Assembly: GCA_030425425.1 (NCBI GenBank)
Contig: JAUIAO010000008.1
Location: 62,001 to 126,000 of the forward strand
Direction: 5' to 3'
DNA: 64,000 bases
Origin: Bacteroidia bacterium
GTDB taxonomy: Bacteria > Bacteroidota > Bacteroidia > Cytophagales > Cyclobacteriaceae
Made by a program: the position numbers and the translations under genes. Position 1 is the first letter of the stretch. Each line of letters opens with the position of its first letter. The notes beneath the pieces are model-generated. The model saw only the letters and a program-made list of their open reading frames with translations. It did no database searches and was not told where the DNA came from. Shown here in pieces: positions 19,385 to 40,781 of this stretch.

Positions 19385-19981
19385 ATGGGAATAGAAGAAA
19401 ACATTATACCACACGATCACCTGATCAAGCAGTCAGACCGAATTAAAAAATTGGGTTATGGACCTAAATTGATTTGGTTTACGGGGCTCTCTGGATCCGG
19501 AAAATCTACATTGGCTAGCGCTCTCGAAACCTATTTGTATAATCAAGATTTTCTCACATATATTCTAGATGGTGATAATATTCGCTCTGGACTGAATAAA
19601 GATCTGGATTTCACAGACGAAAGTCGAGTGGAAAACATTCGTAGGATATCTGAAGTATCCAAGCTTTTTCTTGATGCCGGAGTAGTAGTTTTAACTGCTT
19701 TTATATCGCCATTTAGGGCAGATCGCCAACAAGCTAAAGAACTGGTAGGTGAAGAGAATTTTATCGAGGTATTCGTGGATACCCCACTCGAAATCTGTGA
19801 GAAAAGGGATGTGAAAGGTCTTTATGCCAAAGCTCGAGCAGGGAAAATCGCAAATTTCACAGGGATAGATTCCCCTTTCGAACGTCCTGAAAATCCTGAT
19901 GTCCATATATTGACAGATGGGCAAACCGTAGAGGATTCACTTAATGAACTAATCAAAAAAATAGTACCAAAACTCAAGTAG
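19385..19981 (+). CDS. cysC: Adenylylsulfate kinase
   Basis: Phosphorylates APS to PAPS, the universal sulfate donor. The 198-residue product has the P-loop GLSGSGKS at residues 34-41, DGDNIRSGL near residue 62, and AFISPFRADRQQA carrying the conserved Ser/Arg segment, followed by EVFVDTPLEICEKRD and KGLYAKARAGKI. It stands alone, not fused to CysN. Together with cysD (one base downstream) and cysN it forms a complete PAPS-making set inside a polysaccharide locus. Confidence 0.95.
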   Translation: MGIEENIIPHDHLIKQSDRIKKLGYGPKLIWFTGLSGSGKSTLASALETYLYNQDFLTYILDGDNIRSGLNKDLDFTDESRVENIRRISEVSKLFLDAGVVVLTAFISPFRADRQQAKELVGEENFIEVFVDTPLEICEKRDVKGLYAKARAGKIANFTGIDSPFERPENPDVHILTDGQTVEDSLNELIKKIVPKLK

Positions 19982-19982
19982 C

Positions 19983-20888
19983 ATGAAGAGCTATAATCTG
20001 ACACACATTAAAGAACTGGAGGCAGAAGCTATCTATATCCTCAGAGAGGTTTTTGCTCAATTTGAAAATCCTGCCATTCTGTTTTCCGGAGGGAAAGATT
20101 CTATTTGCGTCGCTCATTTAGCAAGAAAAGCATTTTACCCGGCGAAAATACCATTTCCTTTTGTTCATGTTGATACGGGACATAATTTTCCAGAAACAAT
20201 GGAGTTTCGAAACAATTATGTCGAGGAATTAGGTGTCAAATTGATTGTTGGTTCTGTACAAAAATCAATTGATGAAGGTTCTGCTGCTGAAGAGAAAGGG
20301 AAAAATGCCAATAGAAATGCAATTCAAACAGTAACTCTCTTGGATACCATTGAGGAGCATAAATTTGACGCATGTATAGGTGGAGCCCGAAGAGATGAAG
20401 AAAAGGCACGTGCAAAAGAAAGATTCTTCTCACATCGTGATGAGTTTGGTCAGTGGGATCCGAAAAATCAACGACCTGAGCTATGGAATATCTTTAATGG
20501 TAGATGTCACCATGGTGAAAATTTCAGAGTTTTCCCATTGAGTAACTGGACAGAGATGGACGTTTGGCAATATATTCTATCAGAGAACATATCCTTACCT
20601 TCTCTCTATTTTGCGCATGATCGTCAGGTTATAAGAAGAAATAATACATGGTTGCCCGTATCTGAGTTTATCACCATTGCAGAGGATGAAGAGGTTGTAA
20701 CAAAGCGAATCAGGTTTAGAACACTTGGCGACATTACCATAACTGGGGGCGATGAGTCTGATGCTGACACTCTTGAAAAAATCGTAGAAGAAGTGGCCTC
20801 TGCAAGACAGACTGAAAGAGGTAACAGAGACTTCTATGGAGGACAGGAAGAAGCAGGGATATTTTTAATTTTTGAATCAAAGACATAA
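19983..20888 (+). CDS. cysD: Sulfate adenylyltransferase small subunit
   Basis: The 301-residue catalytic subunit of ATP sulfurylase, which makes APS from ATP and sulfate. FSGGKDSICVAHLA is the PP-loop; HVDTGHNFPETMEFR and GGARRDEEKARAKER are CysD signatures, as is the C-terminal RFRTLGDITITGG. Pairs with the GTPase subunit CysN six bases downstream. Confidence 0.97.
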   Translation: MKSYNLTHIKELEAEAIYILREVFAQFENPAILFSGGKDSICVAHLARKAFYPAKIPFPFVHVDTGHNFPETMEFRNNYVEELGVKLIVGSVQKSIDEGSAAEEKGKNANRNAIQTVTLLDTIEEHKFDACIGGARRDEEKARAKERFFSHRDEFGQWDPKNQRPELWNIFNGRCHHGENFRVFPLSNWTEMDVWQYILSENISLPSLYFAHDRQVIRRNNTWLPVSEFITIAEDEEVVTKRIRFRTLGDITITGGDESDADTLEKIVEEVASARQTERGNRDFYGGQEEAGIFLIFESKT

Positions 20889-20894
20889 AGAAAA

Positions 20895-22181
20895 ATGGAT
20901 AAGGACATTCAAAAGCACGACAATACTGGTTACCTAAACATGGAACTTCTCAGATTCACTACCGCTGGTAGCGTGGATGATGGGAAAAGTACATTGATCG
21001 GTAGACTTTTATTTGATTCAAAGTCAATATTCCAGGATCAAATGGACCAAGTGGCTAAGTCTAGTGAAAGAAAAGGCCTAGAGCACACTGATTTAGCCTT
21101 GTTGACAGATGGACTGAAAGATGAGCGCGAGCAGGGAATAACAATCGATGTAGCTTATCGATATTTTGCCACACCTAAGAGAAAATTCATTATTGCTGAC
21201 ACTCCAGGTCATATTCAATACACCCGGAATATGGTAACAGGAGCTTCTACAGCGAATTGCGCCTTGCTTCTGGTTGATGCAAGAAAAGGAGTGATAGAGC
21301 AAACACAAAGACACTCCATTATTGCTTCTCTTTTGAAAATCCCTCATGTTATTGTTTGTGTGAACAAAATGGATTTGGTTGATTATTCTGAAGAGGTTTT
21401 TGAGAAAATTAAGGAGGACTATGAAGCATTTGCTTCTAAGTTGGAAGTTAAAGACGTTCGATTTATTCCGATTTCAGCTTTGAATGGGGATAATGTGGTA
21501 AATAGGAGTGAAAATATGCCTTGGTATGGTGGGTCAACTTTACTTTACACTTTAGAAAGCATTCATATTGGTAGTGACTATAATCATATTGATTGCAGAT
21601 TTCCTGTTCAAACAGTAATTCGCCCTAAGAATGATAAATATCATGACTATAGGGGTTATGCAGGAAGAATTGCTTCCGGTGTTTTTAAGCCAGGAGATGA
21701 AATTACAGTTATGCCTTCTGGATTTACTTCTAAGATAAAATCTATTGATACCTATGACGGTGAAATAGACGAAGCATTTGCACCAATGTCGGTTACGATT
21801 CAATTAGAAGACGAAATAGATATTGGAAGGGGAGATATGATTGTGAGATCTGGTAATAAACCTGAAGCAATTCAGGATATTGAAGTTATGATTTGTTGGT
21901 TAAATGTTAATGGTCCTAAGCCAAGAGCGAAATACATTCTTCGTCATACTACTTCTGAAGTTAAAGCGATGATAAAAGAAATCAGCTACAAACTAGACAT
22001 TAGCACACTACATAGAATTGAAGATGATATTCAGATTTCAGCTAATGATATCTGTAAAATGAAACTTAGAACCACTAAGCCATTACTCGCAGATTCATAT
22101 AGAAAAAATCGAATTACTGGGAGTTTAATATTAGTCGATGAAGCAACGAATGAAACTGTTGCTGCAGGAATGATTGTTTAA
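20895..22181 (+). CDS. cysN: Sulfate adenylyltransferase large subunit (GTPase)
   Basis: The GTPase subunit that drives sulfate activation, 428 residues. G1 loop GSVDDGKST at residues 25-33, then the conserved REQGITIDVAYRYF, DTPGH and NKMD motifs of translation-factor-like GTPases, and the beta-barrel domains. It ends without a CysC domain, consistent with the separate cysC upstream. A strong terminator follows at once, closing the cysC-cysD-cysN transcript. Confidence 0.96.
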   Translation: MDKDIQKHDNTGYLNMELLRFTTAGSVDDGKSTLIGRLLFDSKSIFQDQMDQVAKSSERKGLEHTDLALLTDGLKDEREQGITIDVAYRYFATPKRKFIIADTPGHIQYTRNMVTGASTANCALLLVDARKGVIEQTQRHSIIASLLKIPHVIVCVNKMDLVDYSEEVFEKIKEDYEAFASKLEVKDVRFIPISALNGDNVVNRSENMPWYGGSTLLYTLESIHIGSDYNHIDCRFPVQTVIRPKNDKYHDYRGYAGRIASGVFKPGDEITVMPSGFTSKIKSIDTYDGEIDEAFAPMSVTIQLEDEIDIGRGDMIVRSGNKPEAIQDIEVMICWLNVNGPKPRAKYILRHTTSEVKAMIKEISYKLDISTLHRIEDDIQISANDICKMKLRTTKPLLADSYRKNRITGSLILVDEATNETVAAGMIV

Positions 22182-22206
22182 AAGATTAGAATAAAATAAT
22201 GATATG

Positions 22207-22237
22207 CACACCTCGAATATTTCGAGGTGTGTTTTTT
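22207..22237 (+). terminator. Rho-independent terminator after cysN
   Basis: A perfect 11-base-pair stem (22207-22217 with 22221-22231, loop TAT) is followed by six T residues from 22232. It lies between cysN and cysQ, so cysQ and the genes after it need another promoter or read-through. Confidence 0.9.
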
Positions 22238-22255
22238 AATTCAACGCCACATACA

Positions 22256-23011
22256 ATGAACTACAACGAATTATTAGATGTAGCCAAAGAAGCATCCCAA
22301 AAAGCTAGTGATGCGATCATCAGGATATACGAGACTGGTGATTTTTCTATTGAAGCCAAAGCAGATGATTCACCTCTTACAAAAGCAGACAAGGCCTCCC
22401 ATAATGAAATAGTTGCACTATTGGAGGGCACAGGGCTTCCAATACTGAGTGAGGAAGGAAGCAAGATTCCTTTTGATGAGCGAAAAGATTGGGAATACTT
22501 CTGGATGATTGATCCACTTGATGGGACAAAGGAGTTTATCAAGAAAAATGGAGAGTTCACTGTAAATATCGCACTTATTCATAAAACAAAAGTTGTGCTC
22601 GGTGTTGTTTATACTCCGGTTTTGAAAGAGATGTTTTGGGCTATAGATGGTCAAGGAGCCTACAAAGATGGAAATAAAATATCTGTAAACTCTTTTAGTA
22701 CAGAAGATGAAAACCTCAAAGTAGTAGCTTCTCGGTCTCATTTAAATGATGACACTCAAGCATTTTTAGATAATCTGAACAACCCCGAAATTGTATCAAA
22801 AGGGAGCTCTCTTAAGTTACTGATGGTAGGTGAGGGGCAAGCTGACTTGTACCCTAGATATGCTCCAACGATGGAATGGGATACTGCGGCCGCTCAGATT
22901 ATTGTAGAGGAGGCTGGTGGCACTGTTAAGATAAAAGATACCAACGACCCTGTACAGTATAACAAAGAGGATTTGCTTAATCCGTATTTTCTGGTGGCAG
23001 GGAAGCATTGA
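22256..23011 (+). CDS. cysQ: 3'(2'),5'-bisphosphate nucleotidase CysQ
   Basis: Removes the 3'-phosphate from PAP, the by-product of PAPS-dependent sulfotransfer. The 251-residue product starts at ATG 22256 (MNYNELLDVAKEAS); an earlier in-frame ATG at 22199 would run through the terminator stem and is rejected. The inositol-monophosphatase fold motifs are present: LSEEGS, IDPLDGTKEFI and EWDTAAAQIIVEEAGG. With cysCDN and the sulfotransferase at 40098 it completes a PAPS use-and-recycle cycle. Confidence 0.95.
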   Translation: MNYNELLDVAKEASQKASDAIIRIYETGDFSIEAKADDSPLTKADKASHNEIVALLEGTGLPILSEEGSKIPFDERKDWEYFWMIDPLDGTKEFIKKNGEFTVNIALIHKTKVVLGVVYTPVLKEMFWAIDGQGAYKDGNKISVNSFSTEDENLKVVASRSHLNDDTQAFLDNLNNPEIVSKGSSLKLLMVGEGQADLYPRYAPTMEWDTAAAQIIVEEAGGTVKIKDTNDPVQYNKEDLLNPYFLVAGKH

Positions 23012-23045: not shown

Positions 23046-23597
23046 TTGAAAAAAGCACGTCAAATAATAGATCAGCATCTTCAAACAGTCAATGCAATAT
23101 CGGATGAGATATTAGTTATACTTGAAAATGTTGCAGATCTGATTAAGCGGGCACATCAACTTGGAAACAAAGTGATTCTTTTTGGTAACGGAGGTAGTGC
23201 GGCGGATGCTCAGCATATTGCCGCAGAGTTCGTAGTGAAGTTTCAGAAAGAAAGAAAGTCACTCCCCGCCATTGCCCTGACAACAGATACTTCGATCCTT
23301 ACAGCCATTGGAAACAATTTGGGGTTTGAATACATATTTTCGCGTCAACTGGAGTCTATTGCCAAAAATGGAGACGTGGTTATAGGTATTTCAACCAGCG
23401 GGGAAAGTCAAAATATACTTTATGGTATAAGAACCGCAAATGGATTGGGTTGTAAGACGGTAGGCTTTTCTGGTGGTGGTGAAAATAGTCTTTCTAAAGC
23501 TGTTGATATTAATCTTTTGGTACCTAGTACTGTGACTGCTAGAATTCAAGAAGTACATATTTTATACGGTCATATTTTATGTGATTTGGTAGAATAA
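23046..23597 (+). CDS. gmhA: Sedoheptulose-7-phosphate isomerase (phosphoheptose isomerase)
   Basis: A 183-residue SIS-domain protein that makes heptose-7-phosphate for heptose-containing surface sugars. The signature GNGGSAADAQHIAAEFV and the C-terminal EVHILYGHILCD are those of GmhA. The frame has no ATG near its start; TTG at 23046 is the best start, since it gives the family's usual N-terminus. No other heptose gene (hldE, gmhB, hldD) is in the window, so its substrate flow is not explained locally. Confidence 0.88.
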   Translation: MKKARQIIDQHLQTVNAISDEILVILENVADLIKRAHQLGNKVILFGNGGSAADAQHIAAEFVVKFQKERKSLPAIALTTDTSILTAIGNNLGFEYIFSRQLESIAKNGDVVIGISTSGESQNILYGIRTANGLGCKTVGFSGGGENSLSKAVDINLLVPSTVTARIQEVHILYGHILCDLVE

Positions 23598-23685: not shown

Positions 23686-23709
23686 CGGCAAATCAAAATC
23701 TTCAAATAA

Positions 23710-26136
23710 ATGAATTTATTTAAATTCCTGATGGTAACTCTAGTAATGTTAAATGTAACCCAATTTACTGTTGGGCAGGCATTAGATATTGATGTCAATC
23801 AGTTGAGTGATGAACAGATCAGGACTTTAGCTGAAAAGGCCAAGGAAAGTGGCTACTCCGAAGATCAGCTTTCCCAATTGGCGCAATCTCGTGGATTGTC
23901 CACATCCCAGATTGCAACATTGCAATCAAGAATTGAGAATTTAGAGCAAAATTCTGTCTCTTCACAAAGAACGCTGGTAGATTCAAATAAGAGATTGAGG
24001 CAAACAAGCAACGTAGACCCTTTTGATTATTTGTCAGTAGGTGCAGCGAGTGCTGATAAGTTGGGAACATTGCCCATTTTCGGAACTACATTTTTTAATA
24101 ATCCCAATCTCACTTTTACACCAAGTGTTAATGTACCGACACCTGCTACTTATCAATTGGGGCCAGGAGATGAGATTATTATAGATGTTTGGGGTGCATC
24201 AGAAAAATCCTACAGATTACAAGTTTCTCCCGAAGGGTCATTGATGATTCCTGGTGTGGGTCCTGTATATGTCAACGGATTGATGTTCGAAAAAGCAGAT
24301 AATAAGATCACACAATACTTAAAAAGAATTTACAGTTCACTAGGCGATAATACATTTTCTCAGATTAGCTTGGGCCAAACAAGGTCAATAAGTGTGAATG
24401 TAATTGGGGAGGTTACACGGCCGGGTACCTATTTGGTGTCGTCTTTTTCTACGGCATTCAATGCTCTCTATTTGTCAGGTGGACCCTCTTTGAATGGTAC
24501 TTTGAGAGCTATTGAAGTTTTTAGAGATGGCAGAAAAATAGCCACATTGGATACTTACAATTTTCTCGTATTCGGAGAGGGGCAAAACATTCAGTTACAT
24601 GATCAGGATGTAATACTTGTAAAACCATACCTGAGTAGAGTTTCAATCATAGGTGAGGTGAAAAGGCCTGCAGTTTATGAATTGAAAGAGGGTGAGACCC
24701 TTAATCAGCTTCTGCTTTATGCCGGAGGGTTTACTAGTTTGGCATTCAGAGAGAGGGTAACTTTTCAGCGTAATCTCAGCAATCAAAAGACAGTTTTAAC
24801 AGTCAACAAGAAAGACTTTGGTTCTACTCTTATGCAGTCTGGTGATCGTGTGAATGTTAATCAAATACAAAATCTATTTGTTAATAGAGTAACTATTAAT
24901 GGTGCCGTAAAGCAACCTGGAGATTATGAGCTAACAGAAGGCATGATGTTGAGTGAGTTGATTTATAAGACAGAAGGCTTCACTCCTGATGTTTTCCTGA
25001 ATAGGGCGACAATACTCCGCAAAAACGAAGATTATACACTCACAACAATTCCATTTTCACCTAAATCAGTGATATCTGGTGAATTTGACTTGAAACTGAA
25101 TTCTGAAGATGTCATTAAAATCAACACCATTTTTGACATGAGAGAAGGCCAGAATGTAACGATAAATGGTGAAGTTCAAAGTCCGGGCAGTTTTGCATAT
25201 ACGGAGAATATGACCATCAAGGACTTAATTTTTCTTGCGGATGGATTCAAGGTATCTGCTGCAAAATCATTTATCGAGGTGGCAAGAAGGTTTGATGGTG
25301 AACAAGAGGTAGAAAGTAAAAAGCTGTCGCAATTATTTACCTTTCAGGTGAATGAAGACTTAAGCTTGGAGGAAGAGGATGCCGCTTTCGTATTACAGCC
25401 TTACGACTTAGTGATGATTAGAAAATCCCCGTCTTATCAGTCACAAAGAATAGTTGAAATAGAGGGCGAGGTATTATTTCCGGGAAAATACGTAATTAGC
25501 AATAAAGGGGAGCGTATTTCTGATTTAATCGAACATGCAGGTGGCTTGACAAGTGAAGCATACGCTGAAGGAGCCACATTGATCCGAGAGTCTGAGTATA
25601 ATGGCAGTCAATATGACGCTGCACAAAAAAGAACAAGAATTCAAAACCTTGCTGATCGAGATAGTTTGTCAAATGAAACCACATATAAAATTAGTAGTCA
25701 AGAATCTATAGCGATTGAATTAGATAAGGTCTTGGCTAAAAAGGGTGGACCTGAGATCAACCTCAGGTTAATGGAGGGTGACATTCTTTCAATACCAAAG
25801 AAAATGGAAACAATTCGTGTGAGGGGTGAAGTAAACTCTTTTAGTGTTTTGCCATTTAATACACGTATGGGCTTAAGAGATGCGGTGACGCAATGTGGTG
25901 GGTTTACAAAAAATGCAAAGCGATCAAAAATATTTGTAGTATATGCTAATGGTGCGGCGATGAAAACAAGGAACATTTTAGGGATTAAAATATATCCAGA
26001 TTTGAAACCAGGATCTGAAATTATTGTTCCTCAGAAACCACCAAAGAAACCAGTCAATGGACAAAGAATCATTAGCGCATCCAGTAGCTTGGCATCTTTA
26101 GCACTTGTAATTAACTATTTGGTACGATCATTATAA
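23710..26136 (+). CDS. Wza-like polysaccharide export protein with multiple SLBB domains
   Basis: An 808-residue outer-membrane/periplasmic export protein. Residues 1-22 are a signal peptide ending VGQ; no lipobox Cys is visible, unlike E. coli Wza. Residues 30-80 form a helical segment (LSDEQIRTLAEKAKESG). The poly-export domain (YQLGPGDEIIIDVWGA) starts near residue 150 and is followed by about six SLBB repeats, each with V-x-GEV-x-PG or INGAVKQPGDYEL-type text. This is much longer than Wza and typical of Bacteroidota. It precedes the Wzz-like partner by eight bases. Confidence 0.93.
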   Translation: MNLFKFLMVTLVMLNVTQFTVGQALDIDVNQLSDEQIRTLAEKAKESGYSEDQLSQLAQSRGLSTSQIATLQSRIENLEQNSVSSQRTLVDSNKRLRQTSNVDPFDYLSVGAASADKLGTLPIFGTTFFNNPNLTFTPSVNVPTPATYQLGPGDEIIIDVWGASEKSYRLQVSPEGSLMIPGVGPVYVNGLMFEKADNKITQYLKRIYSSLGDNTFSQISLGQTRSISVNVIGEVTRPGTYLVSSFSTAFNALYLSGGPSLNGTLRAIEVFRDGRKIATLDTYNFLVFGEGQNIQLHDQDVILVKPYLSRVSIIGEVKRPAVYELKEGETLNQLLLYAGGFTSLAFRERVTFQRNLSNQKTVLTVNKKDFGSTLMQSGDRVNVNQIQNLFVNRVTINGAVKQPGDYELTEGMMLSELIYKTEGFTPDVFLNRATILRKNEDYTLTTIPFSPKSVISGEFDLKLNSEDVIKINTIFDMREGQNVTINGEVQSPGSFAYTENMTIKDLIFLADGFKVSAAKSFIEVARRFDGEQEVESKKLSQLFTFQVNEDLSLEEEDAAFVLQPYDLVMIRKSPSYQSQRIVEIEGEVLFPGKYVISNKGERISDLIEHAGGLTSEAYAEGATLIRESEYNGSQYDAAQKRTRIQNLADRDSLSNETTYKISSQESIAIELDKVLAKKGGPEINLRLMEGDILSIPKKMETIRVRGEVNSFSVLPFNTRMGLRDAVTQCGGFTKNAKRSKIFVVYANGAAMKTRNILGIKIYPDLKPGSEIIVPQKPPKKPVNGQRIISASSSLASLALVINYLVRSL

Positions 26137-26144: not shown

Positions 26145-27239
26145 ATGGAAGGACAAAAAAAGAAGTCTGATGAATTGGATTTAGTAGAATTGTTAGGTCT
26201 GATTTGGGAGAAAAAGTTATTTATTCTCAAGATCGCATCTATAGTGTTTGTGGTTGGAATAGTTATAACCTTTACCACTCCGAAAGAATATGAAGCTTCC
26301 TCAACTCTAATTTCGGAAGCGGAAGGAAGTAATTCTGGTTTTTTAGGAGGAATTGCTGCTTCTTTGGCTGGTATTAATTTAGGAGGTAATGCGGCGGCAG
26401 CTACAATCAGCCCTGGTCTTTACCGATCAGTAGCAAAAAGTACTCCCTTTATTATGGATTTAATGAATCAGGAGTTTTATTATTCTGATGAAGACAAAAA
26501 AGTGAGTGTTTACGAACTGTACACCGAATATAAAAAGTCCAGCTTAATTGGAACGATCATTTCGGCTCCATTCAAATTATTAGGATATCTTAAGGAAAAA
26601 CCATCAGATGACCACAACGAGAAACTAGAGAAGCCTGGTTTAGTAAAAATGACAATTGATCAAGAGCGTGTAGCAAAAGCCTTATTGGAAGATATTTTGG
26701 TAACATTTGATTGGGAACTTAAGGTAGTGACAATAGAAGTGGAAATGCAAGACCCTTTGATCGCAGCTGAAGTAGCTGAATACACCAGGAAATATATCAC
26801 GGATTATGTAATAGAATATTCAAGGGCAAAGAATAAGGAACAACTAGATTTTATCACCGAGCAATATGAAATTCGTAAAAAAGAATTTGAAGCGATACAG
26901 TTGGAGTTGGCGACATTCAGGGATAAAAACAAGTATGTAACCACTGCTACAGCCAGAACACAAGAGGAAAAACTTCAATCGGAGTATAATCTGGCGTTTG
27001 GTTTGTATAGTCAGCTTGCGCAGCAAAAGGAGGCTATAATTTTGAAAATGAATGAAGAAACAGCAGTATTCTCAACATTGCAACCTGTAGTCGTTCCAAA
27101 CAAACATAGCAGCCCTCAGACGTTAATCATGCTTATCCTTTTTATGTTCTTGAGTGTTTTTATTCCAGTGGCTATGGTTATTGGGAAAGTGTTGATAAAA
27201 GGGTTCAATTCTGGCAGGACAGAACTTGAAAATGAATGA
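26145..27239 (+). CDS. Wzz-type polysaccharide chain-length / co-polymerase protein
   Basis: A 364-residue inner-membrane protein with membrane segments near residues 30-50 and 325-350 flanking a periplasmic coiled-coil region (about residues 225-300). PKEYEASSTLISE after the first segment and PVVVPNKHSSPQTLI before the second are PCP signatures. No tyrosine-kinase domain is fused and none is found nearby. It should work with the Wza-like protein upstream in polysaccharide export. Confidence 0.9.
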   Translation: MEGQKKKSDELDLVELLGLIWEKKLFILKIASIVFVVGIVITFTTPKEYEASSTLISEAEGSNSGFLGGIAASLAGINLGGNAAAATISPGLYRSVAKSTPFIMDLMNQEFYYSDEDKKVSVYELYTEYKKSSLIGTIISAPFKLLGYLKEKPSDDHNEKLEKPGLVKMTIDQERVAKALLEDILVTFDWELKVVTIEVEMQDPLIAAEVAEYTRKYITDYVIEYSRAKNKEQLDFITEQYEIRKKEFEAIQLELATFRDKNKYVTTATARTQEEKLQSEYNLAFGLYSQLAQQKEAIILKMNEETAVFSTLQPVVVPNKHSSPQTLIMLILFMFLSVFIPVAMVIGKVLIKGFNSGRTELENE

Positions 27240-27333: not shown

Positions 27334-28638
27334 ATGCTGATCAAACAATTAAAAGGTGCGGTTTTTAATAATGCGGTATGGTTGTTACTGGACAAGGCTT
27401 TGCGTATTATTCTGAAATTTACCACCTCCATAATTGTTGCCAACTATGTTGGTGTTGACTTTTATGGTGAGTTAAACTATGTTATTTCGGTTAATCTGTT
27501 AGTTTTCAGCTTGGCTAGTTTCGGACTGAGTGGAATTGTCGTAAGAGAGTTTATTAAATCCAGATATTCTAAACAGGAGATATTATCAAACTCATTATCT
27601 CTGAGGATTTTTGGTTCCATCCTCAGTCTAATTGTTTTGTTTATTGTCACACGGTTCTTTCATGCTTTTGAAGTTAGCACAGCACATCTTTTATTAATAT
27701 TTGCTTTAGGTTATGCTTTTACCAGTTTCGATATCCTCGATTTTTGGTTTCAATCTAAGCTAAACTCTAAGCCAGCGACAATAGTTAGAATGGGAAGTTT
27801 TGTTTTAATCTCATTGTCTCAAATTATTGCGGTTTACTTGGAGACAAAATTCACCACTTTTGTGGCTATTATGTCTTCAGAATATTTTTTGGTTGCTCTT
27901 ATTTATATTCTATTAGTTGCTGGCTCTAGCGATTTACGTATCTCACTAAAGGTGAATCTCGAAATAATTCAATACCTACTTAAGCAGTCATGGCCTTTGA
28001 TTATATCTGGCATAGGGGCAATCATATACCTTAAAATTGATGTGATTATGCTCAAGGAGATGATGGGTACTGAACCTGTTGGAGTGTATGCTGTGGCGGT
28101 TCAATTTTCTGAATTATGGTACTTTATACCCGTGGCGCTTGGAAGTTCTTTTTTTCCTAAGATGGTAGAAGTAAGCGGAACCGATGCTTTTGAAAAAAAA
28201 ACACAGGGGTACATTGCCATCATGATCTTGATTTCACTAATTATCGCAATCGGTGTTAGCCTATTAGGGCCCTATGTCATTCAACAGTTTTATCTTCCTT
28301 CCTATTGGCAAGCTGGAAGTGTTTTGTTGATTCATATATGGGCAAGTATATTCATTTTTATTAGACAGGTTTTTAGCAAATGGTTGATTGCGTGCGATTT
28401 GACAAAATATAGCTTGCACTCGCAGTTATTTGGTGCTTTGGTAAATGTAGTGTTGAACTTAATCTTCATTAAGTCATTAGGTTTGTATGGTGCTGCTATG
28501 GCTACACTTGTTTCGTATGCATCTTCATCTGTTTTTATTCTTTTTCTTACTAAAGACTTAAGACCTTTCGCCTACTTGATATTTAAAGCAATTTCTTCTC
28601 CTGTTGTTTCAATTAAATATGCCATACACAATGATTAA
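27334..28638 (+). CDS. Polysaccharide flippase, MOP superfamily (first copy)
   Basis: A 434-residue membrane protein with about twelve segments, typical Wzx size and start (FNNAVWLLLDKALRIILKFTT). It probably moves a lipid-linked oligosaccharide across the inner membrane. A second, dissimilar flippase lies at 40821. The gene's 3' end overlaps the nitroreductase-like gene by eight bases. Substrate unknown. Confidence 0.88.
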   Translation: MLIKQLKGAVFNNAVWLLLDKALRIILKFTTSIIVANYVGVDFYGELNYVISVNLLVFSLASFGLSGIVVREFIKSRYSKQEILSNSLSLRIFGSILSLIVLFIVTRFFHAFEVSTAHLLLIFALGYAFTSFDILDFWFQSKLNSKPATIVRMGSFVLISLSQIIAVYLETKFTTFVAIMSSEYFLVALIYILLVAGSSDLRISLKVNLEIIQYLLKQSWPLIISGIGAIIYLKIDVIMLKEMMGTEPVGVYAVAVQFSELWYFIPVALGSSFFPKMVEVSGTDAFEKKTQGYIAIMILISLIIAIGVSLLGPYVIQQFYLPSYWQAGSVLLIHIWASIFIFIRQVFSKWLIACDLTKYSLHSQLFGALVNVVLNLIFIKSLGLYGAAMATLVSYASSSVFILFLTKDLRPFAYLIFKAISSPVVSIKYAIHND

Positions 28639-30872: not shown

Positions 30873-31706
30873 ATGGAAAGCGACAAATTACCTTTGGTAT
30901 CCGTCTATATTCCTACGAAAAACCGCAGGAAATTGCTTGAAAGGGCAATTGAATCAGTACTTAATCAAACATATAGGAAAGTTGAATTAATTGTAGTCAA
31001 TGATGGTTCCACCGATGATACACAGAAATATCTCGAAGGTTTGACGGGAAAAAACAATATTAAGGTTATTCATAATGAGACCTCCAAAGGGGCAAATTGT
31101 AGTCGGAATATGGCAATTAATTGTGCAAATGGAACTTATGTTACCGGTTTGGATGATGATGATTATTTTGATTTGGAGAGAATAGAGATGTTTGTTCGGG
31201 CCTATGATGACAACTACAGCTTTCTTTGTGCAAATCAAAAATATGTACGAGGGAATAGGTTTGTCATAAAATCATCATTTGATGGTGAAATCACATTAGA
31301 TCATTTGCTTGCATTTAATGTGGTTGGAAATCAGGTTTTCACAATTAAACAGCATTATCTTGATGTAGGGGGATTTGATGAATCACTGTCAGCTTGCCAG
31401 GATTATGACTTATGGGTCAGGATGGTGAAAAAACTAGGCAATGCCTTTAAGATCAAGAATGCAACCTATATCGTCGATGAGGAAGCTACTGCGAATCGAA
31501 TTACCACTAGTTCAAAGGCATTTAGTTCTTATTTGCAGGTTTATCATAGCCAAAAACATTTCATGAATAGCTTTCAACGAGGGTCAAGATTATTAGCCAT
31601 TAGGGAATTACAGGGAAAAAGGCTTTCCAGATTCAATATTATTAAGTTTTTAAGAATTTTAGGCCTGAAAAACATATTGGCACATTTTTACAGAATGAGC
31701 AAATGA
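30873..31706 (+). CDS. Glycosyltransferase family 2
   Basis: A 277-residue GT-A enzyme. The N-terminus LVSVYIPTKNRRKLLERAI and VVNDGSTDDT are the nucleotide-binding region; GLDDDDYFD holds the metal-binding Asp motif near residue 92, and GGFDESLSACQDYDLW the acceptor/catalytic Asp. Adds one sugar of the repeat unit; donor and linkage cannot be told. It overlaps the acetyltransferase gene by four bases. Confidence 0.92.
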   Translation: MESDKLPLVSVYIPTKNRRKLLERAIESVLNQTYRKVELIVVNDGSTDDTQKYLEGLTGKNNIKVIHNETSKGANCSRNMAINCANGTYVTGLDDDDYFDLERIEMFVRAYDDNYSFLCANQKYVRGNRFVIKSSFDGEITLDHLLAFNVVGNQVFTIKQHYLDVGGFDESLSACQDYDLWVRMVKKLGNAFKIKNATYIVDEEATANRITTSSKAFSSYLQVYHSQKHFMNSFQRGSRLLAIRELQGKRLSRFNIIKFLRILGLKNILAHFYRMSK

Positions 31707-32212
31707 AAACTTCTAAATACAATATTTGTCAGGATTGGAGCTACAATGACGGAAATCTGAAGGGAAAGATACTTATGGTGCATTTCAGGTTAGCTTTTTT
31801 ACTCAGGTCGCATATTTTGTTCACTGTAATTGGTCTACCATTTTTAATTTATTACAGAATTTTTATAGAATGGGTAATGGGTGTAGAGTTACAGATGACT
31901 ACTCAGGTTGGAACAGGGTGTAGGTTAGAGCATGGTCAGGGCTTAGTTGTGTATTCGATGACTGTTATTGGCTCAGGTGCACTGCTACGTCAAAACGTGA
32001 CTATAGGTAATAAGAAAAATAAAGACGGATCATACTCAGATGCTCCGATAATCGGGAATAATTGTGACCTTGGCGCTGGTGCCATGCTAATTGGGGAAAT
32101 CACTATAGGTGATAATGTCACCGTCGGTGCTGGCTGTGTTGTGGTAAAAGATGTTCCTTCTAATTCCATTGTAATTGGTAATCCAATGAGAATAATTCCT
32201 AAGAAGTTATGA
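31703..32212 (+). CDS. Left-handed beta-helix O-acetyltransferase (serine acetyltransferase-like)
   Basis: A 169-residue protein with hexapeptide repeats from about residue 75 to the end (VIGSGALLRQNVTIGN, PIIGNNCDLGAGAMLIG, EITIGDNVTVGAGCVV, and IGNPMRII). The fold and C-terminus match CysE-like acetyltransferases of polysaccharide loci rather than true serine acetyltransferase. Likely acetylates a sugar of the polymer. It overlaps the polymerase by four bases. Confidence 0.85.
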   Translation: MKTSKYNICQDWSYNDGNLKGKILMVHFRLAFLLRSHILFTVIGLPFLIYYRIFIEWVMGVELQMTTQVGTGCRLEHGQGLVVYSMTVIGSGALLRQNVTIGNKKNKDGSYSDAPIIGNNCDLGAGAMLIGEITIGDNVTVGAGCVVVKDVPSNSIVIGNPMRIIPKKL

Positions 32213-33471
32213 GTTTTGGGTCGCTAATAGTATTGATACTAATTGAATTTTTTTTCTTCACAGTGGTTGTGCTGGCCAAGAGATTATACTTGAGACCTAT
32301 TGTGATGTATGTGGCATTTTTATTCCTTTACCCCATAGTATCATCTTTGATTTTTTATTTGAATCTGAATTTTTTGTATGATTGGGTGCCGTATTATCCG
32401 CAGGAAATATATGTGAAGGCCTTGAAAATTAGTATCGCCTCAATGCTTCCGCTTTGCATTATACCCGTATTTATGAAGAAATCTACGGTGAAGGCTTCAT
32501 TCAAACCGACAGTTGGTTTTGGGATCATAAAGAATATTTTTTTCTTAATTTTTGGCCTTTACTTCGTATTCGTACTGATTAATTTTAATACGCTTTTTTT
32601 GGGCTGGTATGGTACAATTAAGGCAGGTGCGTTTTTCAAACTATTAACTTTATTAGATTACTTATTATACAGTGCTTTTGTCTACCGAATGGCCTACCTC
32701 CCATCCCAAAAGTTTTCCAAAGCGGAGTACGGTGCACTAGGGTTTTATGCATTGGTGAAAATTGGTTCTGGTGGTCGAATGTTTTTGCTGGTATTTGTTT
32801 TAGCTTATTTAGTGCATTTTGTGAAACAGAGGGGAGATAAAGTGTTATCATTATCCAAGTTCATCCCAGTTTCTCTATTTACAATATTTGGTCTAGGCTT
32901 TATCGTTTCTATTCGTGAGCGAACTTTCGATGTGGCAAAATCATTTTACAGTTTATCATTAGAGTTTCTGAATTGCTATATATCTGCCTTAAAAACCGCT
33001 AGCCTTAGCGAAGATTTTATAGGAACTAATTATACGTTCTTTTTAGATCCAATACTGAGTTTTATTCCATCCGGCATATTTGATCGTGAAAACTTCTACT
33101 TTTTCCGCTTTCTGGATAGTATAGGGGGATATTATGCCTACTCTCCTATTGGAGGGCAATATTTACCTCACCAGATTTTCTTAATTCACCCAAGTTATAT
33201 TTTCGTGTTCATTTACTTTCTGTTACTAGCTATTCTGTTATACAATATGGATCGTATGACATTTAGTTCTAACAGATTTGTGAAATACAATTATCTCTAT
33301 TCCTTATTAATATTTTTGCAGTCTTTATTTCTCGTTTTTTCTGTACGGCATTATTTCTTTGCTCATGTAAAACATTTCCTCATTGTCATTGTATTTGGAG
33401 TTTTAATCAATATCGGTTTGAATCTCATCACCAGAGGCATGGGTAGAAAGCCGAGTAACAGGATTCTTTAA
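32209..33471 (+). CDS. Wzy-type repeat-unit polymerase (copy 1)
   Basis: A 420-residue protein with ten or more membrane segments and a large loop rich in conserved residues (about 260-330: SLSLEFLNCYISALK, FFLDPILSFIPSGIF, DSIGGYYAYSPIGG). The topology and locus fit an O-antigen/EPS polymerase that joins lipid-linked repeat units in the periplasm. It is about 60 percent identical by eye, over the same length, to the protein at 34837. Overlaps the acetyltransferase gene. Wzy proteins are poorly conserved, so function rests on context. Confidence 0.8.
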   Translation: MSFGSLIVLILIEFFFFTVVVLAKRLYLRPIVMYVAFLFLYPIVSSLIFYLNLNFLYDWVPYYPQEIYVKALKISIASMLPLCIIPVFMKKSTVKASFKPTVGFGIIKNIFFLIFGLYFVFVLINFNTLFLGWYGTIKAGAFFKLLTLLDYLLYSAFVYRMAYLPSQKFSKAEYGALGFYALVKIGSGGRMFLLVFVLAYLVHFVKQRGDKVLSLSKFIPVSLFTIFGLGFIVSIRERTFDVAKSFYSLSLEFLNCYISALKTASLSEDFIGTNYTFFLDPILSFIPSGIFDRENFYFFRFLDSIGGYYAYSPIGGQYLPHQIFLIHPSYIFVFIYFLLLAILLYNMDRMTFSSNRFVKYNYLYSLLIFLQSLFLVFSVRHYFFAHVKHFLIVIVFGVLINIGLNLITRGMGRKPSNRIL

Positions 33472-33649: not shown

Positions 33650-34678
33650 ATGAACGTATTATTTATAGTAAGAAATGATGCTGGAGTCAAATCAGGAGGT
33701 GATTTGATACAAAGTCAGTATTACAAGAAAGTACTTGAGGATGAAATAGATGGGTTAAGCGTACAATATGCTCACGAGTTATCACCTAAACAATTATCAT
33801 CTAATAATTGGGATATAATTCATGCCTTCAATGTGGAAAGGTTGTTGGACTATTCGAAGTATATCACCACCAATATTAGTGCGTACAAAATATTATCACC
33901 AATACTACATCCTGGCTATAAACCCAATGTTACAAACAAAATAAAAACTTACATTAGGGCAGTGCTTTCTAAGCAACCGTTACCTAAACTGACTCACTCA
34001 ATTTCCAATACACTGGAGATATTTGATTTTTTTACTTTTTTATCTACATCCGAACAGGAATATTTTCAAAATACATTTCACAGAATGAAAATTGAAAGTA
34101 TGGTTGTAATAAATGCCGTTGATCAACGGTTAATTACTGATCGGGAGTTTCGAGATAAAGACAATGAACTATTGATTGTAGGAAGGATAGAAAGCCGCAA
34201 GAATATAATATCAACAATTAATATAGTAAATAAGCATTTTAGCTATGCAACCTTGAAAATTATTGGAAGTAAGAATAAGTATCAAAAAGCATATTTCAAA
34301 CAATTCCAGAAGTTGCTTAGAGAATCACCTAATGTAGAATACCTTGGAGTTCGGACTCATGAAGAGGTTCTTGAAATTATGAGGAAAACAAAAGTGTTAC
34401 TAACCTTGAGTAATGCAGAAGTATCACCTCTGGTAGATTTGGAAGCCTTGGCTTGTGGATGTAAAGTGTTGACCACTACACAGTCATGGACACATCTTAG
34501 TTCATCAAAGAACGTACTATTCGCAGATCCAAAAAATGAAATACAGGTAGTTAATGCAGTTAATATGCTTTTGAATAACGGATTTGATTATTCAGTCAAA
34601 GAAATTGTAGGGTGGGAAGAAGCCTTAGCGGGTCTTGTTGGCAAGTATAAGAGTTTACAAAGCCAAATCAAGAGATAG
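33650..34678 (+). CDS. Glycosyltransferase family 4-like (GT-B)
   Basis: A 342-residue retaining-type GT-B enzyme. ELLIVGRIESRKNI near residue 177 is the start of the C-terminal Rossmann domain; YLGVRTHEEV and LSNAEVSPLVDLEALACGCKVL hold the nucleotide-sugar-binding Glu. It lies between the two polymerase paralogues, with 178 bases of non-coding DNA before it and 158 after it; I see no features there beyond a weak TAATATTG match at 33618. Confidence 0.87.
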   Translation: MNVLFIVRNDAGVKSGGDLIQSQYYKKVLEDEIDGLSVQYAHELSPKQLSSNNWDIIHAFNVERLLDYSKYITTNISAYKILSPILHPGYKPNVTNKIKTYIRAVLSKQPLPKLTHSISNTLEIFDFFTFLSTSEQEYFQNTFHRMKIESMVVINAVDQRLITDREFRDKDNELLIVGRIESRKNIISTINIVNKHFSYATLKIIGSKNKYQKAYFKQFQKLLRESPNVEYLGVRTHEEVLEIMRKTKVLLTLSNAEVSPLVDLEALACGCKVLTTTQSWTHLSSSKNVLFADPKNEIQVVNAVNMLLNNGFDYSVKEIVGWEEALAGLVGKYKSLQSQIKR

Positions 34679-34836: not shown

Positions 34837-36099
34837 ATGAACATAGGAATATTAATAATAATTGGATTAATAGAGCTTATAATATTTATTTTACCTGTAA
34901 TGTGGAAAAAGCTTTATGTAAGGCCAATTGTCATTTACATATTGTTCCTTTTTCCATATCCGCTAGTACCCTCTATTGTTTTCTATCTTGACTTGAGTGT
35001 TTTGTATCCGTGGGTTCCTTCTTTTTCAGAGGAGGTATATATGAAAGCATTACTGATTAGTTTGGTGGCTCTTTTTCCTTTGAGCTTATTGCCCTATTTC
35101 ATGCAAAAGGCAATAACGAAGGCCGTCTTTTTGCCCAATAGTAGTTTCAAGTTAGTCAAACAAGTCTTTCTGGTCATTTTTTCACTTTACATGCTCTTCG
35201 TCCTGGTCAACTTTAAGGGTTTTTTCATTAATCACTATGGGGATATTAAAACAGGTATATTTTTTAAAATCATAACTCTATTTGATTATTTCCTATATAG
35301 TGCTTTTGTCTATCGTTTAGCCTACCTACCCGCACAAAAACTCTCAAGAGCAGAACTTGCGTCATTAGGCTTTTATTCTCTGGTGAAAATTGCTTCTGGT
35401 GGTCGTATGTTCTTGGTAACTTTTATTTTGGCATACGCAGTTCATTATGTGAAGCAAAAAGGGGAAAACATCATTTCTTTAGTGAAGCTAATACCCCTTG
35501 CATTTTTAATGATTTTCAGTTTGGGTTTTGTGGTTTCTATTCGGGAACGCACCTTCAATATTGCTAAGTCGTTTTATAGTTTATCACTAGAATATATGAA
35601 TTGTTATATCTCTGCATTGAAGTCTTCAAGTCTAAAAGAAGATTTTATAGATACACATTATACATTTTTCTTAGATCCGATTTTGAGTTTCATTCCTTCT
35701 GGAATTTTTAATAGAGAAAATTTTTATTTTTTTAAGTTCCTGGATAGTATCGGTGGGTATTATGCCTATTCACCTGTTGGTGGTCAGTATTTGCCACATC
35801 AAGTATTCTTAATTAATCCGAGCTTTATTTTCGTATTTATCTATTTTTTCATTTACGCGATCATTCTCTTCGTAATAGACCGAATGACTTTTGGATCAAA
35901 CAAATATGTTAGGAATAACTATGTGTATTCGTTGCTGATTTTTCTACAATCCATATTTCTGATTTTTTCAGTAAGGCACTATTTCTTTGTGCACATTAAG
36001 CATTTGCTGATGGTTGTTGTATTTGGGCTATTGGTCAATCTAATAATCAATCTTCTTTTAAAAGGAACGGGTCGAAATGAAAGTAATCGGATCATGTAA
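34837..36099 (+). CDS. Wzy-type repeat-unit polymerase (copy 2)
   Basis: A 420-residue membrane protein, the paralogue of the one at 32209. The central loop is nearly the same in both (FFLDPILSFIPSGIF, DSIGGYYAYSP, GGQYLPHQ), as is the ending (SNRI plus one residue). The N-terminal 100 residues differ more, with roughly half identical. DNA-level differences are mostly at third positions, so the duplication is old and both copies are kept intact. Start ATG 34837 aligns with the start of copy 1. Confidence 0.8.
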   Translation: MNIGILIIIGLIELIIFILPVMWKKLYVRPIVIYILFLFPYPLVPSIVFYLDLSVLYPWVPSFSEEVYMKALLISLVALFPLSLLPYFMQKAITKAVFLPNSSFKLVKQVFLVIFSLYMLFVLVNFKGFFINHYGDIKTGIFFKIITLFDYFLYSAFVYRLAYLPAQKLSRAELASLGFYSLVKIASGGRMFLVTFILAYAVHYVKQKGENIISLVKLIPLAFLMIFSLGFVVSIRERTFNIAKSFYSLSLEYMNCYISALKSSSLKEDFIDTHYTFFLDPILSFIPSGIFNRENFYFFKFLDSIGGYYAYSPVGGQYLPHQVFLINPSFIFVFIYFFIYAIILFVIDRMTFGSNKYVRNNYVYSLLIFLQSIFLIFSVRHYFFVHIKHLLMVVVFGLLVNLIINLLLKGTGRNESNRIM

Positions 36100-36198: not shown

Positions 36199-37017
36199 AT
36201 GAATAAAAACCTATCAGCCTGCATAGTCACTTATAATCATAGCCTGGAGGAGATCGGTGCTATCGTGGAGATGTTTCACCAATACTATGAAAAAGTACAC
36301 TTAATAATAAGTGACAATTCATCAAGAGATACAGGACTAGCGCAATTGGCTGACAAGTATGATTTTGTAGATTACACGAATGCAGGGGGAAACATTGGAT
36401 TTGGTGCTGGTCATAATAGGGTACTTAATCGGATTGAATCAGAATATCATATTATTGTAAATCCCGATGTTGCCTTTGATTCGGTAGCTTTAGATAGTTT
36501 GGTTTCCTATATGGACAACAATCCAGATGTGGGAGTATGTTCACCTGCCGCAGTTTATACATCAGGAGAGGAGCAGGTAGCTTCCAGGTTAATACCGGCA
36601 TTTTTGGATTTGCTTATAAGACGGATGGGTATTTTACAGCGAGTATTTGATCGGCGGCTGAAATTGCATGAATTAAAATCTCAAACCGGAGAACCTTTTG
36701 AGTGCTATTTCATGCACGGTTTTTTTCTGTTTTTTCGAACGAAAGTGTTTAAGAAAATCGATGGTTTTGATGAATCATTCTTCATGTACTTTGAGGATTT
36801 GGATATACTCAGGAGAGTTGCAAGAGAAGAGGGTTATAAAAGTATGTTTCTGCCATCTGTAAGGATAATTCATGGCTATAAAAGAGAATCCACTATGTCT
36901 AAAAAATTGTTGTATCATCTTATTGTTTCCGCTTTACGCGTTATCTGGAAATATGGATGGATTTTCGATTTTGAACGACGAAAGCTCAATAAGAAAGTCT
37001 TGCAACAATTCTCTTAG
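36199..37017 (+). CDS. Glycosyltransferase family 2, rhamnosyltransferase-like
   Basis: A 272-residue GT-A enzyme. SACIVTYNHSLEEI, NAGGNIGFGAGHN and IIVNPDVAFD form the donor-binding region, and IDGFDESFFMYFEDLDI carries the catalytic Asp of the WbbL-type group, many of which transfer rhamnose from dTDP-rhamnose. That donor would fit the rfbABC genes here, though rfbD is missing from the window. Donor call is tentative. Confidence 0.87.
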   Translation: MNKNLSACIVTYNHSLEEIGAIVEMFHQYYEKVHLIISDNSSRDTGLAQLADKYDFVDYTNAGGNIGFGAGHNRVLNRIESEYHIIVNPDVAFDSVALDSLVSYMDNNPDVGVCSPAAVYTSGEEQVASRLIPAFLDLLIRRMGILQRVFDRRLKLHELKSQTGEPFECYFMHGFFLFFRTKVFKKIDGFDESFFMYFEDLDILRRVAREEGYKSMFLPSVRIIHGYKRESTMSKKLLYHLIVSALRVIWKYGWIFDFERRKLNKKVLQQFS

Positions 37018-38106: not shown

Positions 38107-38219
38107 TTTAGAATTGATCTGTAGTAAGTCAAAGTTAGATTAATTCGAAAGATTATAAATTTTGAACAGATTGTTTTATCTGGAAGAAGGAATCCAAATC
38201 AATTAAAAACAGTAATTTC

Positions 38220-39452: not shown

Positions 39453-39655
39453 TGCCGAGCCTTTTTTTATTTCTGTAATACCCAAAGCACAGGGTAGTAT
39501 GTCCTGTTTTGGTAATCTGGGTTTCCCTGACTTTCTTCACCTGAAACTCTGTTATAGCCAATGATAATTTGCTAGCCATTTTCTTTGATTGATGGTTTAT
39601 ATTAGATTTCCTTATCCTGCATATGAAGATTAAAGTCATTCTTTCTTTATGGAAA

Positions 39656-39949: not shown

Positions 39950-40084
39950 ATGTGTAAAGCTAACTCTTGTCTGCGCACGAATTCAAACTCAATTAGGATA
40001 AATCTTCAGTTGAGTTTGATCTGATTGGTTAAACATGTTTTCGATTTTCATTTTGTTTATAGAATATTGTAATTCCAAATCAGA

Positions 40085-40092
40085 TATTTTTG
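40085..40092 (+). promoter_or_regulatory. Candidate -7 box (TATTTTTG)
   Basis: Exact match to TAnnTTTG, ending five bases before the sulfotransferase ATG at 40098. It implies a leaderless or nearly leaderless transcript and argues against the longer start at 40035. No -33 TTG at standard spacing. Confidence 0.4.
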
Positions 40093-40097
40093 CTCCG

Positions 40098-40781
40098 ATG
40101 AAGATAAAGCCTCATTCTCGCAAAATTCTCACAAGATTAAAAGCATTTAGACATAGAAAATCTCAAAAGATTATTTGCATTGGTAAGAATAAAACCGGAA
40201 CAACTTCTATCAGTGCATTGCTCAAGCAATTGGGATATGTTGTGGCGCCACAAGAACCTGCTGAATTACTTGTGCATGATTGGTATAAGAGGGATTTCCG
40301 GAAGATCATTGATTATGTGAAGAATTATGGAGAGGCATTTCAAGACATTCCTTTTAGCCTGGAGGAGACTTACGAACACCTGGACAAAGCATTTCCTACG
40401 GCAAAGTTTATTTTAACCATACGGGACTCCCCGGAGCAATGGTATCAATCTCTTACGAAATTTCATGGTTTGCAATTCGGCAAAGGTGGTCGACTTCCAA
40501 CCAAGGATGATCTCATGAATGCTACATACAGATATCGAGGTTTTGCATGGGAGGTGAACCGAATGCTTCACAATACACCTGAAGAAGAGCCTTATCAAAA
40601 AGAAAGACTGATTGAAGCTTATCATCGATACAATCAAAATGTTATTGACTATTTTGAAGGTAAAGATGATAAGCTTTTGGTTGTAAACCTTGCATCATCT
40701 GATGCACTGACCAAAATACTTGCTTTTTTGAACAAAACAGGAGAGTTGGCCCAAATGCCCTGGGAAAACAAGACGCTATAG
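40098..40781 (+). CDS. Sulfotransferase family protein
   Basis: A 227-residue PAPS-dependent sulfotransferase. The 5'-phosphosulfate loop IGKNKTGTTSI is at residues 28-38, and the 3'-phosphate site R109-x-S111 is in TIRDSPEQWYQSL. It probably sulfates a sugar of the polysaccharide made by this locus, using PAPS from CysC/D/N and leaving PAP for CysQ. A start 21 codons upstream (40035) is hydrophobic but lies before a promoter-like box, and the shorter start is preferred. A protein or lipid acceptor cannot be excluded. Confidence 0.88.
   Translation: MKIKPHSRKILTRLKAFRHRKSQKIICIGKNKTGTTSISALLKQLGYVVAPQEPAELLVHDWYKRDFRKIIDYVKNYGEAFQDIPFSLEETYEHLDKAFPTAKFILTIRDSPEQWYQSLTKFHGLQFGKGGRLPTKDDLMNATYRYRGFAWEVNRMLHNTPEEEPYQKERLIEAYHRYNQNVIDYFEGKDDKLLVVNLASSDALTKILAFLNKTGELAQMPWENKTL

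Follow-up and report, generated by a model that had tools for sequence, protein, structure and literature searches.

The cysCDNQ cassette and the sulfotransferase of a polysaccharide locus

The window analyzed here is a stretch of 64,000 nucleotides (positions 62,001 to 126,000 of contig JAUIAO010000008.1, designated C30) from a Bacteroidia bacterium of the family Cyclobacteriaceae, whose genome (assembly GCA_030425425.1) comprises 5.85 Mb in 121 contigs and is estimated to be 99.4% complete. It carries a polysaccharide locus spanning approximately 14.5-48.9 kb, and inside this locus lie both a cysC-cysD-cysN-cysQ run and a sulfotransferase gene. We think it probable, with room for doubt, that this conserved cassette supplies the sulfate donor 3'-phosphoadenosine 5'-phosphosulfate (PAPS) to several sulfotransferases, among them one that probably sulfates the polymer of the locus.

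The four cys genes are intact and lie on the same strand, separated by gaps of 1, 6 and 17 bases (19385-23011). Their products retain the P-loop, SGGKDS, GTPase and DPLDGT/WDTA motifs, and each exceeds at least one curated NCBIfam cut-off, CysD falling slightly under that of TIGR02039 (390 bits, cut-off 397). The first-pass annotation had placed these genes within a polysaccharide cluster, had seen no cysH, cysI or cysJ in the window, and had noted, some 20 kb on, a sulfotransferase with both PAPS-binding motifs. Family scores, motifs and flanking polysaccharide genes uphold the placement; no match to the reduction genes was found on the window's contig, those of the genome being on contigs C15, C22 and, weakly, C92; and the sulfotransferase gene lies 17 kb past cysQ and approximately 20 kb past cysC.

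The product of 40035-40781, a protein of 248 residues, scores 73.3 bits against PF17784 (cut-off 22.8) and carries the motifs KTGTTS (residue 53) and RDSPEQWYQS (residue 130); we take KTGTTS and R130/S139 to be the 5' and 3' phosphate-binding motifs. Invariant columns among 20 aligned sequences, namely the window enzyme and 19 of the 30 PF17784 loci fetched, include T54, G55, T56, D104, P106, R130, W136 and S139; the first motif deviates (KTAT, KMGT) in L071, L083 and L084, three of the 11 loci omitted from the alignment. The AlphaFold model has a mean predicted local distance difference test score of 88.6, and each of its 22 PDB matches at E <= 0.001 bears a sulfotransferase description, with top template-modeling scores near 0.6; adenylate kinases, which also have the P-loop, make up most of the weaker matches. 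By family, motifs and predicted fold, this gene encodes a PAPS-type sulfotransferase, its activity and acceptor being putative. A scan of contigs seeded with this sulfotransferase returned 34 stretches that fitted the pattern, 0 of which were confirmed as relatives.

Upstream of the cys run are RmlB-, RmlA- and RmlC-type genes, an epimerase and a nucleoside diphosphate (NDP)-sugar dehydrogenase, and downstream of cysQ are a SIS-domain isomerase, Wza (SLBB), Wzz, a flippase, a pyruvyl transferase, glycosyltransferases and two candidate Wzy proteins. An exosortase X cassette on the opposite strand separates this first downstream part from the sulfotransferase, after which come a second flippase, a DegT aminotransferase, a WbqC-like protein, a glycosyltransferase, a TauD-family protein, WcaJ- and WecA-type transferases and then pheS. 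Genes for polymer export and assembly are thus present as Wza, Wzz, two flippases and initiating transferases, with Wzy as a putative member. The principal features are as follows:

14537..15622 (+), RmlB-type deoxythymidine diphosphate-glucose 4,6-dehydratase (TIGR01181 480 bits, cut-off 365)
15727..16593 (+), RmlA-type nucleotidyltransferase (PF00483, 5e-72)
16584..17123 (+), RmlC-type 3,5-epimerase (PF00908, 3e-61)
17123..18067 (+), NDP-sugar epimerase/dehydratase (PF01370/PF16363; 82-94% identity in loci of eight relatives)
18078..19334 (+), NDP-sugar dehydrogenase, TviB-like (TIGR03026 385 bits, above cut-off; NF011729 569 bits, slightly below cut-off 592)
19385..19981 (+), CysC, adenosine 5'-phosphosulfate (APS) kinase (TIGR00455 251 bits, cut-off 139; sole one found in the genome)
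19983..20888 (+), CysD, sulfate adenylyltransferase small subunit (NF003587 425 bits, cut-off 195; sole CysD found in the genome)
20895..22181 (+), CysN, sulfate adenylyltransferase GTPase subunit (TIGR02034 557 bits, cut-off 336)
22199..23011 (+), CysQ, 3'(2'),5'-bisphosphate nucleotidase, which removes 3'-phosphoadenosine 5'-phosphate (PAP) (TIGR01331 262 bits, cut-off 229)
23046..23597 (+), SIS-domain isomerase, GmhA-like (under TIGR00441 cut-off)
23710..26136 (+), Wza-type export protein with SLBB domains (PF02563, PF10531)
26145..27239 (+), Wzz-type chain-length protein (PF02706)
27334..28638 (+), first Wzx-type flippase (PF01943)
29733..30863 (+), polysaccharide pyruvyl transferase (PF04230)
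30873..31706 (+), glycosyltransferase family 2 (PF00535)
32209..33471 (+), candidate Wzy polymerase, polytopic-looking
33650..34678 (+), glycosyltransferase group 1 (PF00534)
34837..36099 (+), second candidate Wzy
36199..37017 (+), glycosyltransferase family 2 (PF00535)
40035..40781 (+), PAPS-dependent sulfotransferase, Sulfotransfer_4 (PF17784; motifs; predicted fold)
40821..42266 (+), second Wzx-type flippase (PF13440, 5e-82)
42293..43372 (+), DegT-family sugar aminotransferase, DesI-like (under the DesI model's cut-off)
43385..44125 (+), WbqC-like protein (PF08889)
44330..45436 (+), glycosyltransferase family 2 (PF00535)
46264..47655 (+), WcaJ-type initiating sugar transferase (PF02397)
47754..48854 (+), WecA-type initiating transferase (PF00953)

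The two candidate Wzy proteins, 420 residues each and 65% identical over 400 residues, are a pair duplicated within one locus, and neither has a match in Pfam or NCBIfam. The exosortase X at 37086-38106 (-) scores 195 bits against NF046081 (cut-off 170) and has a weak XrtX-associated membrane protein alongside; relatives of both lie close to the corresponding end of the locus in genomes G001 (L121:1504-2513) and G002 (L122:12711-13746). Beside this cassette, a 421-residue protein at 38220-39485 (-) found no match in Pfam, NCBIfam or PHROGs, and a PHROGs search of three window proteins was likewise negative.

Recurrence of the arrangement and co-occurrence across the family

Sugar-nucleotide genes, cysCDNQ and Wza follow one another in this order in eight of the first 20 relatives (G001, G002, G005, G120, G060, G090, G157, G086) and in Reichenbachiella agariperforans DSM 26134 (L221), whose 21-kb stretch yielded no sulfotransferase; the same order around cysCDNQ is found in metagenome-assembled genomes (MAGs) titled Cyclobacteriaceae (L219), Flammeovirgaceae (L220) and Rickettsiales (L218). 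The last of these, PBTY01000009.1, holds a close version of the locus (epimerase 93%, CysN 92% identity), and its label is likely wrong. A cysCDNQ run stands beside Wza in nine of the first 20 relatives' stretches, and Wza is present in 19 of all 80. When the next 40 kb were followed in those nine relatives, a WcaJ-type gene was found downstream in eight and pheS in seven; because these two recur, the 14.5-48.9 kb region can be regarded as a single locus whose ends are fixed and whose middle varies, and the in-locus sulfotransferase falls in that variable part. A scan of contigs seeded with the epimerase gave 80 named loci, seven with CysC nearby, which is no rate for CysC loci since these loci were picked by their epimerase. 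Outside the family, as judged by their titles, a Bacteroidetes MAG (L272) and a Saprospiraceae MAG (L275) carry cysCDN with two and three sulfotransferase-profile matches per 21-kb stretch, and the L272 stretch also holds a WcaJ relative.

Across the family, CysC tracks sulfotransferases. A strong CysC (E <= 1e-30, with 15 weak APS-kinase matches of best E ~1e-4 to 9e-4 counted as absent) is present in 108 of 148 genomes, and a match to PF13469, PF17784 or PF00685 in 99 of these 108 versus five of the 40 others (Fisher p = 3e-20, with relatedness uncorrected and genome size not controlled). Matches were counted at E <= 0.001, and they lie above the family cut-off in 94 of 95 genomes for PF13469, 34 of 37 for PF17784 and 94 of 96 for PF00685. 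Genomes of one family are not independent; a table of one genome per genus, limited to PF13469 and PF17784, which reduces this dependence and does not remove it, places a sulfotransferase in 55 of 62 with CysC and in two of 22 without. The exceptions to the full table are nine CysC genomes lacking a match to the three families and five genomes that have a match and no strong CysC. Two genomes of genus g68, G072 and G132, have sulfotransferase matches with neither a strong CysC nor a PF01507 match; their completeness is 89-90%, and the genes could be absent from the assemblies or the donor could come from elsewhere. Sulfatases (PF00884), counted in 59 genomes, do not discriminate, because CysC-less genomes have them too (10 in the genome studied here, 21 in the CysC-less G006).

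The neighborhoods of cysDN also differ according to whether CysC is present. Stretches of approximately 20 kb were compared between 80 CysC-linked loci, drawn from 80 of the remaining 107 genomes with CysC, with long contigs favored and some ending at contig ends, and 20 control cysDN loci of CysC-less genomes. Markers were called by BLASTP to window proteins at E <= 1e-8, for which reason the counts are lower bounds, and CysC itself was not called in two of the 80 (L111 and L195). An export, flippase or initiation gene, meaning a relative of Wza, Wzz, Wzx1, Wzx2, WcaJ or WecA, accompanies 46 of the 80 CysC-linked stretches versus one of the 20 controls, and CysQ accompanies 68 versus none. 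Conversely, CysH is near none of the 80 versus 18 of the controls by BLAST (19 by profile), and a sulfite reductase is near none versus 18.

A CysD tree of 92 rows, covering 74 of the 80 CysC stretches and 17 of the 20 controls (sequences outside the length range having been left out), repeats this division: a branch with 100% support in the Shimodaira-Hasegawa-like approximate likelihood ratio test separates 16 of the 17 control CysD sequences from all 74 CysC-linked ones and that of the window. The window CysD thus lies outside the clade of cysH-linked CysD, and its cysDN genes adjoin neither cysH nor sulfite reductase genes, as those of an assimilatory cluster would. The control CysD inside the CysC-linked clade comes from L217 (G075:C1:563500-583400), where no strong CysC is present and the neighbors of the gene include Wza, Wzz and an NDP-sugar dehydrogenase; CysC may have been lost there or missed.

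Possible acceptors of the PAPS pool and the demands of sulfur assimilation

Genes, motifs, predicted fold, gene order, co-occurrence and clades are established at the level of sequence. Gene content, co-occurrence, neighborhood contrast and the CysD tree together strongly support PAPS supply for sulfotransferases; sulfation of the locus's own polymer, which the first-pass annotation had proposed as well, stands as likely only. According to the mechanism that we favor, the locus would make and export a surface polysaccharide by a Wzx/Wzy-type route in which the Wzy step is assigned to the candidate polymerases. CysDN would convert sulfate and ATP to APS, CysC would phosphorylate APS to PAPS, sulfotransferases would use PAPS, and CysQ would remove the by-product PAP. 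The in-locus sulfotransferase would most likely act in the cytoplasm on a sugar of the polymer, perhaps an amino sugar that the neighboring aminotransferase helps to make. Eight more sulfotransferases in the genome probably draw on this PAPS pool as well, and an APS-reductase-type CysH encoded elsewhere probably receives its APS from this CysDN.

Several results weigh against this interpretation, some of them bearing on the acceptor and others, taken up below, on CysH. The genome encodes nine sulfotransferases above Pfam cut-offs, eight of them outside the polysaccharide locus on contigs C58, C34 (two), C60, C33, C7, C97 and C21; they were re-checked with Pfam because the home-made profiles used for the neighborhood counts were partly trained on this genome's own enzymes. 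By those profiles, a sulfotransferase is present in only two of the 80 CysC-linked stretches (L110 and L152). Longer flanks were read for nine relatives, and in the loci of six of these (G001, G002, G005, G060, G086 and G046, the far end of G046 being unreached) no sulfotransferase was found; when 32 of the 41 unassigned proteins of five of the six were scanned against Pfam, the 25 families listed, out of 34, included no sulfotransferase. The closest relatives of the window enzyme, in G002 and G005 (46% and 43% identity), sit in a different glycan locus. A cassette dedicated to one polymer was therefore considered and is weakened by the genome's nine sulfotransferases and by the counts of two in 80 and six in nine. 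Since no in-locus sulfotransferase was found in these six relatives and the closest relatives of the window enzyme in G002 and G005 sit elsewhere, the cassette is the fixed part of the arrangement and the sulfotransferase module its movable part.

The same results lend themselves to another explanation, in which the cassette supplies PAPS to the cell at large and its place in the locus is incidental, the polymer is unsulfated, and PAPS goes to sulfotransferases elsewhere that act on other glycans, proteins, lipids or small molecules. Besides the eight outside enzymes and the rarity of sulfotransferases in the CysC-linked stretches and longer loci, it draws on a precedent from Bacteroides, in which the sulfotransferase BT_0416, adjacent to a putative PAPS cluster, sulfates cholesterol (PMC9417993, as excerpted). 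However, the window sulfotransferase lies within the locus, where its gene adjoins that of a flippase amid sugar-modifying and glycosyltransferase genes; three of the nine relatives (G120, G090 and G157) also have an in-locus sulfotransferase; and the sulfotransferase genes on C34 and C60 occupy two further glycan-like stretches (L298 and L299). We regard the general-source explanation as unlikely, though it deserves serious consideration. The C34 stretch (L298, 8642-12722, -) groups a Wzz/tyrosine-kinase-type gene, a WcaJ-like gene and glycosyltransferase relatives with its two sulfotransferases.

It is also conceivable, although distinctly improbable, that the 248-residue protein has a sulfotransferase fold with some other acceptor, e.g. 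a lipid carrier, a protein or a small metabolite, and simply travels with polysaccharide genes. Its fold matches span Schistosoma enzymes, SgdX2 and tyrosylprotein sulfotransferases, with a heparan 3-O-sulfotransferase lower in the list, and the sequence does not reveal the acceptor. Against this, the glycan loci of the two congeners G002 and G005 group relatives of the sulfotransferase with relatives of the same DegT aminotransferase, WbqC-like protein and glycosyltransferase. The sulfotransferase, DegT and WbqC relatives lie together at L020:16279-19878 (G002) and L023:3579-7253 (G005), and more PF00685 matches are found near them (G002:C5:90542; G005:C4:827 and 16196).

The first-pass annotation had also raised the matter of a separate assimilatory pathway. 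Reduction genes do exist on other contigs: CysH is encoded on C15 (L014:8826-9482) and a sulfite-reductase-like protein, so read from PF01077 and from relatives adjoining cysH in 18 of 20 control loci, on C22; a third PF01507 match of the genome, on C92, is weak (25.5 bits, in a 405-residue frame). Searches of the genome found neither a Sat-type sulfurylase nor a second CysC or CysD outside the polysaccharide locus. Since no other CysD or Sat was found while CysH exists elsewhere, assimilation needs at least CysDN from the locus, and with a single CysC and a single CysD detected, the locus probably also feeds sulfur assimilation. The earlier concern that cysHIJ might depend on these copies is in this sense half realized, as CysDN is probably shared between sulfotransfer and assimilation, and CysC is not.

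The separation of CysC from assimilation hinges on the type of CysH. The genome's CysH has the cysteines CC (residue 101) and CEPC (183), and we take the CC...CxxC pattern to represent iron-sulfur ligands marking APS reductases. In phmmer alignments, these cysteines match those of PDB entry 7lhr and are missing in 6vpu, both of which were deposited as phosphoadenosine phosphosulfate reductase. The pattern is present in all 23 CysH hits from the 20 control loci and five others; the hits represent 22 distinct places, and because 19 of these lie in CysC-less genomes, CysH with CC...CxxC evidently occurs without APS kinase. By its cysteines, the genome's own CysH should then be of the APS-reductase type, needing APS from CysDN and not CysC. 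On the other side, the best NCBIfam name for this protein is phosphoadenylyl-sulfate reductase (220 bits; NF002537 and TIGR00434 above cut-offs), and it scores 154 bits against the APS-reductase model, under the cut-off of 235; as the cysteine pattern and the labels disagree, NCBIfam and PDB names do not decide the type. Moreover, the 21-kb stretch of L219 that holds cysCDNQ and Wza also encodes a CysH relative (L219:19365-20105, 42% identity to the genome's own), and the separation of the cassette from cysH is for this reason not absolute.

That cysCDNQ is simply the cell's assimilatory activation pathway, a PAPS route to cysteine with no functional link to the polysaccharide genes, can be given very little credence: the lack of any detected CysD, CysC or Sat outside the locus favors it, but the APS-reductase cysteines of CysH, the retention of cysDN with cysH and sulfite reductase in CysC-less genomes, the association of CysC with sulfotransferases, and the distance of CysC-linked cysDN from cysH in all 80 stretches (L219 lying outside that sample) speak against it. 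Pure assimilation was rejected as the main role of CysC, given that genomes without CysC have this type of CysH next to cysDN. We conclude from these comparisons that CysC and CysQ of the locus serve sulfotransfer.

Known systems and meaning for the Cyclobacteriaceae

Clusters of this kind are already known, with the capsule clusters of Cobetia and Vibrio as precedents; the present locus likewise combines cysC/cysD/cysN/cysQ, a sulfotransferase and export/assembly genes. For the sources cited in this section, what follows reflects excerpted text. Cobetia marina KMM 1449 makes a capsule of determined structure with sulfated rhamnose, and its capsule cluster has cysN/cysC, cysD, cysQ and sulfotransferase genes; unlike the window locus, it belongs to another phylum, exports through an ATP-binding cassette (ABC) transporter (kps), and carries a bifunctional cysN/cysC and a sulfate permease in the operon (PMC11766843). 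Vibrio sp. KMM 8419, whose sulfated capsule structure has also been determined, has cysC, cysN, cysD and three sulfotransferase genes in its polysaccharide locus, but export is of the ABC type and its cys genes are second copies (PMC11641403); in the genome studied here, no CysC or CysD was found besides those of the locus. The synechan (xss) clusters of cyanobacteria join standard exopolysaccharide machinery, Wzx/Wzy- or ABC-dependent, to sulfotransferases; they differ in being cyanobacterial and having their own regulators, and the excerpt makes no mention of a PAPS cassette in the cluster (PMC13125312). Within the same phylum, Bacteroides thetaiotaomicron BT_0411-BT_0416 has putative PAPS genes adjoining a sulfotransferase, but the acceptor is cholesterol and no polysaccharide locus is described in the text available (PMC9417993). 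Pontiella sulfatireligans has sulfated glycosaminoglycan-like polymers and a putative cluster with a sulfotransferase (PMC7356697). In a metagenome survey, all Bacteroidetes MAGs were without the sulfotransferase gene searched for (PF13469), as far as its excerpt goes (PMC9723792). Among the open-access papers listed, as judged by title and the start of the abstract and with most subscription journals outside this scope, we found no such biosynthesis locus described for Cyclobacteriaceae.

What appears to be new is the recurrence of the arrangement in a Wzx/Wzy-type locus across genera of Bacteroidota, together with the probable double use of CysDN. Dedicated sulfate activation genes accompany a carbohydrate sulfotransferase in the rhizobial NodPQ/NodH system as well, although there the enzyme acts on a signaling lipo-oligosaccharide. 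Bacteroidota have mainly been discussed as degraders of sulfated polysaccharides, and the arrangement described here, recurring in related genera, suggests that these bacteria make sulfated surface sugars. It is enticing to go further and propose that a distinct cysCDNQ clade is fixed in a conserved exopolysaccharide locus, that sulfated surface glycans are widespread in the family, and that in such lineages the locus also took over sulfate activation for the cysteine route, a proposal that we hold tentatively and that falls somewhat short of probable. If it is true, a single sulfurylase, encoded among polysaccharide genes, feeds both the sulfation of the polymer and the assimilation of sulfur.

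By the CysC and sulfotransferase counts given above, the whole family appears equipped for sulfated compounds. The CysC-linked CysD clade, often within an exopolysaccharide locus, offers a genomic marker of this capacity, and the locus provides candidate enzymes for making sulfated polymers as well as a case in which sulfation may compete with cysteine synthesis for a single sulfurylase.

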